Below are positions 28,039 through 28,308 of a stretch of 32,428 nucleotides of DNA, piece by piece (within the stretch, counting starts at the first letter, position 1; every line of letters starts with the position of its first letter). The stretch is from Halorubrum sp. CBA1125 (GTDB taxonomy: Archaea; Halobacteriota; Halobacteria; Halobacteriales; Haloferacaceae): the NCBI RefSeq assembly GCF_009742825.1, contig NZ_WPCE01000010.1, positions 1-32,428 of the forward strand. The letters run 5' to 3'. The notes below the pieces were generated by a model. It had not been told where the DNA came from. It saw nothing but the letters and a program-made list of their open reading frames with translations, and did no database searches. The position numbers and the translations under genes were made by a program.

Positions 28039-28308
28039 TGAATCATTGACTCACAGATTCAATGATTCACAATCTCAGGATTTCACTGATTCATTGATTC
28101 AATAATCTCTTGATACGGGTCTGGTGTTCCTGAGTCCTCAATTCAATGCTTCAGGCACTCACTGATTCAGTGATTCAATGATTCTATGAGTCGGTGAATT
28201 GACTCTCTCCATGATGGCAAATGACGCTATAGATCATTGACTCTTTGATTCTCAACTTCCAGAAACCAATACTTCATTGAATCTGTGACTCTGTGACTCA
28301 TTGATTCA
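28039..28308. repeat. Phased TGANTCA octamer array, candidate centromere (parS)
   Basis: Heptamers of the form TGANTCA at exact 8-bp spacing in four blocks. Block 1: 28039, 28047, 28055, 28063, 28071, 28079, 28087, 28095 (eight units, some imperfect). Block 2: 28131 to 28201 (nine units, best at 28163, 28171, 28179). Block 3: 28230, 28238, 28246. Block 4: 28270, 28278, 28286, 28294, 28302, in the same phase as block 3. The unit is a near-palindrome. The array lies upstream of parA and shares its unit with sites in the parA promoter and at the operon end. Confidence 0.8.

Follow-up and report, generated by a model that had tools for sequence, protein, structure and literature searches.

An 8-bp-phased TGANTCA array upstream of parA as a probable plasmid centromere in haloarchaea

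Introduction

Short phased DNA units which serve both as centromere and as operator are known from bacterial plasmids (PMC9499535, PMC7308502). The delta/omega system of pSM19035 consists of ParA-pSM, the ribbon-helix-helix (RHH) protein ParB-pSM and a parS site of 7–10 consecutive 7-bp WATCACW repeats (PMC9499535). In the ParF/ParG/parH system of TP228 the centromere is composed of short boxes and spacers, and ParG, which carries a C-terminal RHH domain, additionally acts as repressor of its operon through an operator located upstream of parFG (PMC7308502). Archaeal systems have been described as well. In the SegAB system of the Sulfolobales, SegB reads isolated 13-bp palindromes (TCTAGASTCTAGA) which are scattered over the chromosomes (PMC5120986, PMC12284271), and the AspA-ParBA system of pNOB8 comprises three proteins, its site being a single 23-bp palindrome from which spreading occurs (PMC5120986). 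A survey from 2025 found ParAB systems to be essentially absent from archaeal chromosomes (PMC12704722), and the nature of the centromeres on archaeal chromosomes and plasmids has been listed as an outstanding question (PMC5120986).

The present analysis concerns a stretch of 32,428 nucleotides from Halorubrum sp. CBA1125 (contig NZ_WPCE01000010.1, positions 1 to 32,428), hereafter called the window. An earlier note, made from the sequence alone, had proposed that an array of TGANTCA units upstream of a parA gene probably represents a new type of archaeal centromere, which would be read by the product of the gene following parA, and had named the omega heptads as bacterial precedent.

With pSM19035 the locus shares a small ParA, a small partner protein, gapless tandem short units which are found in the (proposed) centromere as well as in promoters, and several array sites per plasmid. 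It differs in its palindromic TGANTCA unit on an 8-bp lattice, the omega heptads being non-palindromic, in its archaeal promoter context and in a partner for which no sequence similarity was found. The proposed short-unit centromere is also reminiscent of TP228, where a single RHH-type partner doubles as repressor, a double role that is proposed here by analogy. However, the boxes of parH are degenerate tetramers with AT-rich spacers, and no ParG homology of the partner was detectable in a search of PDB sequences. The bacterial plasmid pTAR likewise has short palindromic repeats at its parA promoter, namely an array of 7-bp palindromes, but these stand about one helical turn apart.

Several features of type Ib systems (ParFG, delta/omega) recur in the window: the ParA is small and has no N-terminal DNA-binding extension, a small partner is encoded downstream in the same operon, and upstream of the operon lies a short-repeat array, for which a centromere role is inferred. 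Membership of the module in type Ib in an evolutionary sense would depend on the fold of the partner. SegAB resembles the locus in combining an archaeal ParA-type ATPase with a DNA-binding partner encoded downstream and with sites upstream of the cassette, but these sites are isolated palindromes as opposed to a phased array. As neither the partner nor its family profile matched SegB among the PDB sequences and as the window contains no excess of TCTAGASTCTAGA palindromes (two matches at three mismatches versus 6.7 expected), membership in SegAB was rejected. The pNOB8 system is also an archaeal plasmid partition system using a ParA, yet it works with three proteins and a single palindrome instead of two proteins and an array; the tests made rejected identity with AspA-ParBA. 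A canonical ParABS system with a helix-turn-helix ParB-CTPase was rejected too, since the partner has no ParB-type match, nor any other convincing family match, in Pfam, NCBIfam and PHROGs.

Results

The features of the locus are compiled in Table 1.

Table 1. Features of the proposed partition locus and of its surroundings (window positions).
Feature	Position	Strand	Evidence
Proposed centromere: 8-bp-phased TGANTCA array	28039..28308	.	phasing statistics; conserved in about 36 relatives
Blocks of the array	~28039-28101, 28131-28201, 28222-28252, 28270-28308
Proposed operator: exact TGANTCA pair, -18 and -26 relative to the start of parA	27917..27931	.	same offsets in 36/36 relatives, few of them mismatched
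TTTATGA, a TATA-like box which overlaps with the -26 unit	27929..27935	-	kept in all 37 aligned loci
parA, deviant-Walker (KGGTGKT) ATPase, 303 aa	26994..27905	-	Pfam AAA_31 7.5e-36; PHROG ParA-like 7e-41
Partner gene, 150 aa; proposed centromere-binding adaptor and repressor	26539..26991	-	sequence comparison; AF2 model
Operon-end cluster: two exact units (26527, 26535) and two degenerate flanking ones	26519..26549	.	fixed place in relatives
Tyrosine recombinase/integrase; neighbour, outside the system	28359..29666	-	missing from retrieved flanks of many array-keeping relatives
Orc1/Cdc6 replication initiator; context showing the replicon	23897..25468	-	TIGR02928 4.1e-105

The array is located in the noncoding gap between parA and the tyrosine recombinase gene, and its G+C content is 38.5%, compared with 56.7% for the window. 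It contains nine exact units; when one mismatch is allowed the number rises to 19, of which 16 are phased. Units of the first block begin at 28039, 28047, 28055, 28063, 28087 and 28095, with half-sites at 28071 and 28079; later units start at 28131-28187 (in a run reaching to 28201), at 28238 and 28246, and at 28278, 28286, 28294 and 28302. Inside each block the 8-bp register is strict, and the blocks are separated by phase breaks. The approximately 25 units of the earlier note are reached when units with at least four of the six letters and half-sites are counted, and on this basis the eight to nine consecutive units it had seen in the first two blocks were found again as runs of eight and nine, the latter at 28131-28201.

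The proposed check for an autocorrelation peak at 8 bp gave a value of 0.52 for the array, while 5000 shuffles yielded 0.27 ± 0.03 with a maximum of 0.37. Phased unit pairs were observed 11 times (0.11 expected). For a further score, exact units were used as anchors, the neighbour itself not being selected for matching. At a distance of 8 bp to either side, this neighbour matched on average 4.7 of six letters in the window and 4.5 over 37 loci, whereas at 6, 7, 9 and 10 bp only 0.8–1.1 letters (approximately 0.9) were matched. This difference between the 8-bp neighbours and most other spacings rules out chance as origin of the array, and the claim of an exact 8-bp spacing is borne out by unit positions, pair counts and neighbour scores alike. 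In the whole 3.23-Mb genome six exact double units exist, all of them within one 1.8-kb region which contains the array.

Relatives were taken from 32 other haloarchaeal contigs with a ParA 88–99% identical to that of the window, and from plasmids with a ParA identity down to 77%. Phased units upstream of parA were present in every examined locus (about 36 relatives from many genera, ParA 77–99% identical). As the arrays differ between loci in position and in unit number, this conservation is not mere copied sequence. Units picked at no more than one mismatch (n = 481) showed the composition T76 G97 A98 N T96 C95 A87, with a variable centre and variable, near-random flanks. A strict search for three units in a row with at most one mismatch gave 181 occurrences in 52 of the 391 class genomes, and the reversed control pattern did not occur at all. 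These triple arrays were found in 50 of the 54 genomes with a strong match to the C-terminal domain of the partner versus two of the 337 genomes without the partner (Fisher p = 8e-56, related genomes not being independent). Three of the four exceptions (L131, L132 and L134) do have parA-linked phased units which are missed by the strict pattern, and the fourth (L133) has a single unit pair only. A search of a viral contig collection yielded no relatives. Relatives and co-occurrence together thus substantiate the array as a conserved part of the parA/partner operon. A separate observation was made on a Haladaptatus plasmid (L126:1478-1870), where four intergenic clusters of 3–4 units follow each other every 120–125 bp, far from parA.

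Both units which had been noted in the parA promoter are exact, and a third, degenerate unit is located at -10 of the parA start. The -26/-18 pair abuts the TATA-like box, and the string ATTTATGAgTCAtTGAtTCAATGAT, which links this box with the first promoter unit, is conserved. For the operon end a cluster of four units had been described; the cluster is present, but only two of its units are exact, the other two being degenerate. The TGA of the first operon-end unit is at the same time the stop codon of the partner gene, and in 29 of 32 relatives units are found at -3, +5 and often also +13 of this stop codon. The comparison of relatives therefore upholds the idea of one unit being common to array, promoter and operon end. 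A conserved GTCTGAC string (27941-27947, minus strand; -42 to -36 of parA) is located 16 bp upstream of the -26 unit, within the 8-bp register but without matching the unit; it is perhaps part of the promoter or a site of another factor.

With units at these places, the array might be an extended operator only, with the partner as a repressor and the units tuning parA or neighbouring promoters, while segregation would rely on another site or on none. The conserved pair at the TATA-like box fits with this idea, as do the operon-end units. However, the array extends from about 130 to 400 bp upstream of parA and is far larger than an archaeal promoter needs. Moreover, some plasmids carry extra intergenic arrays remote from parA, which fit a centromere rather than an operator alone, and RHH/ParA systems put the same units to both roles (PMC9499535, PMC7308502). 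A function as operator alone is therefore considered unlikely.

The Orc1/Cdc6 gene, about 1 kb past the operon, raises the possibility that the array consists of replication iterons, with Orc1/Cdc6 or a different Rep protein binding to this part of a plasmid origin, and short direct repeats are indeed typical of iterons. Yet, among the relatives the array stays with parA, whereas the detectable Orc gene moves, flips or is missing from the flank, and the TGANTCA unit is also found at the parA TATA box and at the partner stop codon. The unit is furthermore not known to resemble haloarchaeal origin boxes. Iterons thus appear very improbable. Arm or core sites of the adjoining tyrosine recombinase, the gene of which ends 50 bp from the array and adjoins it in about half of the relatives, are hardly credible. 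This neighbouring gene is dispensable, being missing from the retrieved flank of at least ten relatives which keep the array, and units are moreover found at the operon end and in the parA promoter. Just as little can be said for sites of a host factor (a chromatin protein or a dimeric transcription factor reading TGANTCA): many dimers could make use of a 7-bp palindrome, but the array strictly co-occurs with one plasmid gene pair and the rest of the host genome contains no exact double unit. All three of these candidates were rejected on synteny and co-occurrence.

The window also contains a heavy-metal P-type ATPase gene (421-2844; HMA, E1-E2 ATPase), which suggests a metal resistance cargo of the replicon, a gene for a protein with an ArdC-like N-terminal part and an M78 peptidase-like part (17715-18656), possibly an anti-restriction factor of the plasmid, and an ISH3/IS4-like transposase gene beside the integrase gene (30108-31694).

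The parA product has no N-terminal helix-turn-helix extension, its Walker motif starting at residue 24 of 303, and the only domains detected in it are of the ParA/MinD type. In the clade-A loci examined, the partner gene begins a few bases past the end of parA. In its product, a variable, acidic linker joins an N-terminal MPRGMDERF peptide to a conserved C-terminal domain (residues ~74-150); among the relatives, the start MPRGM[DN]ERF is invariant and the last 77 residues are nearly so. The choice of this protein as partner holds, as its gene always follows parA, as both its N-terminal peptide and its C-terminal domain are conserved, and as the arrays co-occur with its gene. On the Haloferax plasmid pBNX82-3 (L042), only the last residues of parA are left, a transposase gene lying directly upstream, and the reading frame of the partner remains. 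On pNRC100 (L094) and on a Haloplanus plasmid (L105), an orphan ParA gene directly follows gvpACNO, with no partner of this family downstream and no clear array.

An AF2 model of the C-terminal domain reached a mean pLDDT of 84 with a diverse alignment, from which plasmid-collection rows had been left out, whereas the model obtained from the shallow alignment of the clade (A1, 93% identical) was poor (pLDDT 61). The better model shows no regular structure up to residue 18 and helices at 19-37, 45-60 and 62-77. Segment 11-18 is confidently placed and unpaired, as expected for a lone chain. A single RHH chain would likewise show an extended segment and then two helices; a first helix of this length, a loop of seven residues and a third helix, as modelled here, are not typical for this fold. 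Foldseek found no match to the model among PDB or viral folds, the family profile gave nothing significant against PDB sequences with HMMER, and RHH profiles did not match the partner significantly. HHalign against haloarchaeal RHH_1 proteins produced a strand-only alignment in the correct register, with a probability of 2–3% and a score above all 60 column shuffles. Of the RHH fold, for which the earlier note had suggested a structure prediction, the model shows confident helices after an extended segment, but no fold, PDB or RHH profile match was obtained; we lean, with some reserve, towards an RHH domain.

When the C-terminal profile was widened by distant relatives, the partner family was detected in 211 of the 391 genomes of the class, which represent 65 of 86 genera. 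In the loci opened, its members nearly always stand right after a parA, and distant members still have in common an extended segment ('(T)IYLP'), a long helix and a helix with 'LxKNxxFYP'. The ParA proteins of these divergent loci are mostly 27–37% identical to that of the window. The short period which fitted the operon best was 9 bp in 47 of the 50 divergent loci, with autocorrelations mostly between 0.5 and 0.8 versus a flank mean of 0.46. As distant partners come with 9-bp arrays, the type of unit goes with the type of partner, which lends secondary support to the centromere reading proposed below. In family B the unit AAACGAACN or ACCGAACNN occupies the noncoding stretch that precedes parA, and the core AAACGA, which is close to AACGAA, recurs within the partner gene, where it encodes ETN/ETS-type repeats. 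Both show a one-strand bias (noncoding AACGAA 188 to 4; coding-tail AAACGA 44 to 0). In family C the array, GAAACGACT, is found solely inside the partner gene (TTE repeats). In L075, L078, L079 and L082-L084, 9-bp GAAACGACT arrays with TTE repeats and a GAA bias were seen in the N-terminal region of the partner gene. In addition, the 38-kb plasmid pKBTZ02_38 of Halobacterium salinarum contains a relic of a window-type partner C-terminal domain right behind a different parA/partner pair (L040:5995-6201), as if one partition module had replaced another.

Glutamate in the Glu-Thr pairs of the tail is encoded by GAA in 78 of 82 cases in family B and in 56 of 57 in family C, compared with about 34–39% (B) and 29–34% (C) elsewhere in the operon, while the Thr codons of the tail stay G+C-ending as usual. 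Counted per distinct tail, a sign test gave 16 of 19 (B) and six of six (C). Drift of base composition would not yield a shift to GAA with Thr unchanged, but selection for a DNA unit would, so that the codon choice in the coding-embedded arrays points to selection at the DNA level. Family B also shifts some Ser and Asp codons, and the case is therefore cleanest in family C. It appears possible from the sequences that in the GAAACGACT loci the centromere is embedded within the gene of its own adaptor. The chances seem evenly divided that all these loci form a class-wide haloarchaeal partition family, in which the adaptor would have diversified together with its unit (one clade having 8-bp TGANTCA and the others units of 9 bp), some lineages carrying the centromere inside the adaptor coding sequence, with the low-complexity ETxETxETx tail as a by-product of the DNA array.

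Discussion

As the array accompanies the parA/partner pair in dozens of related species, it is very probably a plasmid centromere. In the reading we favour, with a probability of roughly 0.8, the array is a cis-acting centromere and the promoter pair an operator, both read by the partner within a type Ib-like plasmid ParA module; binding, cooperativity, repression, ParA stimulation and segregation are inferred. Dimers of the partner would bind the 7-bp palindromes side by side on the 8-bp lattice through the C-terminal domain, which is probably RHH-like, and would assemble into a nucleoprotein patch spanning some 25 sites. From there, the conserved N-terminal peptide of the partner may engage and stimulate the nucleoid-bound ParA ATPase, which would move or space the plasmid copies. 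By binding the -26/-18 pair where it meets the parA TATA-like box, the partner would repress its own operon, and the operon-end cluster may be an additional minor site. As haloarchaea are polyploid, the need of these plasmids for active partition is not a given.

In line with the earlier note, which knew of no haloarchaeal example, no description of a haloarchaeal plasmid centromere was found in the part of the open-access literature that the search covered. To speak of a new centromere type is fair for a candidate in Archaea, but the logic itself is known from bacteria and the 8-bp period is not universal, distant relatives having 9 bp. The locus offers a concrete, testable centromere candidate and a likely protein to bind it, both of which occur in many genera. 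Cultivated and genetically tractable haloarchaea are among the carriers, natural ones being for instance Natronorubrum bangense and Haloferax elongans, and the candidate may be of use for stable vectors and as a model for partition in polyploid archaea. As the family of the partner and the length of the unit (8 or 9 bp) change together, they would furthermore provide a natural experiment on the co-evolution of DNA-binding specificity and centromere spacing.
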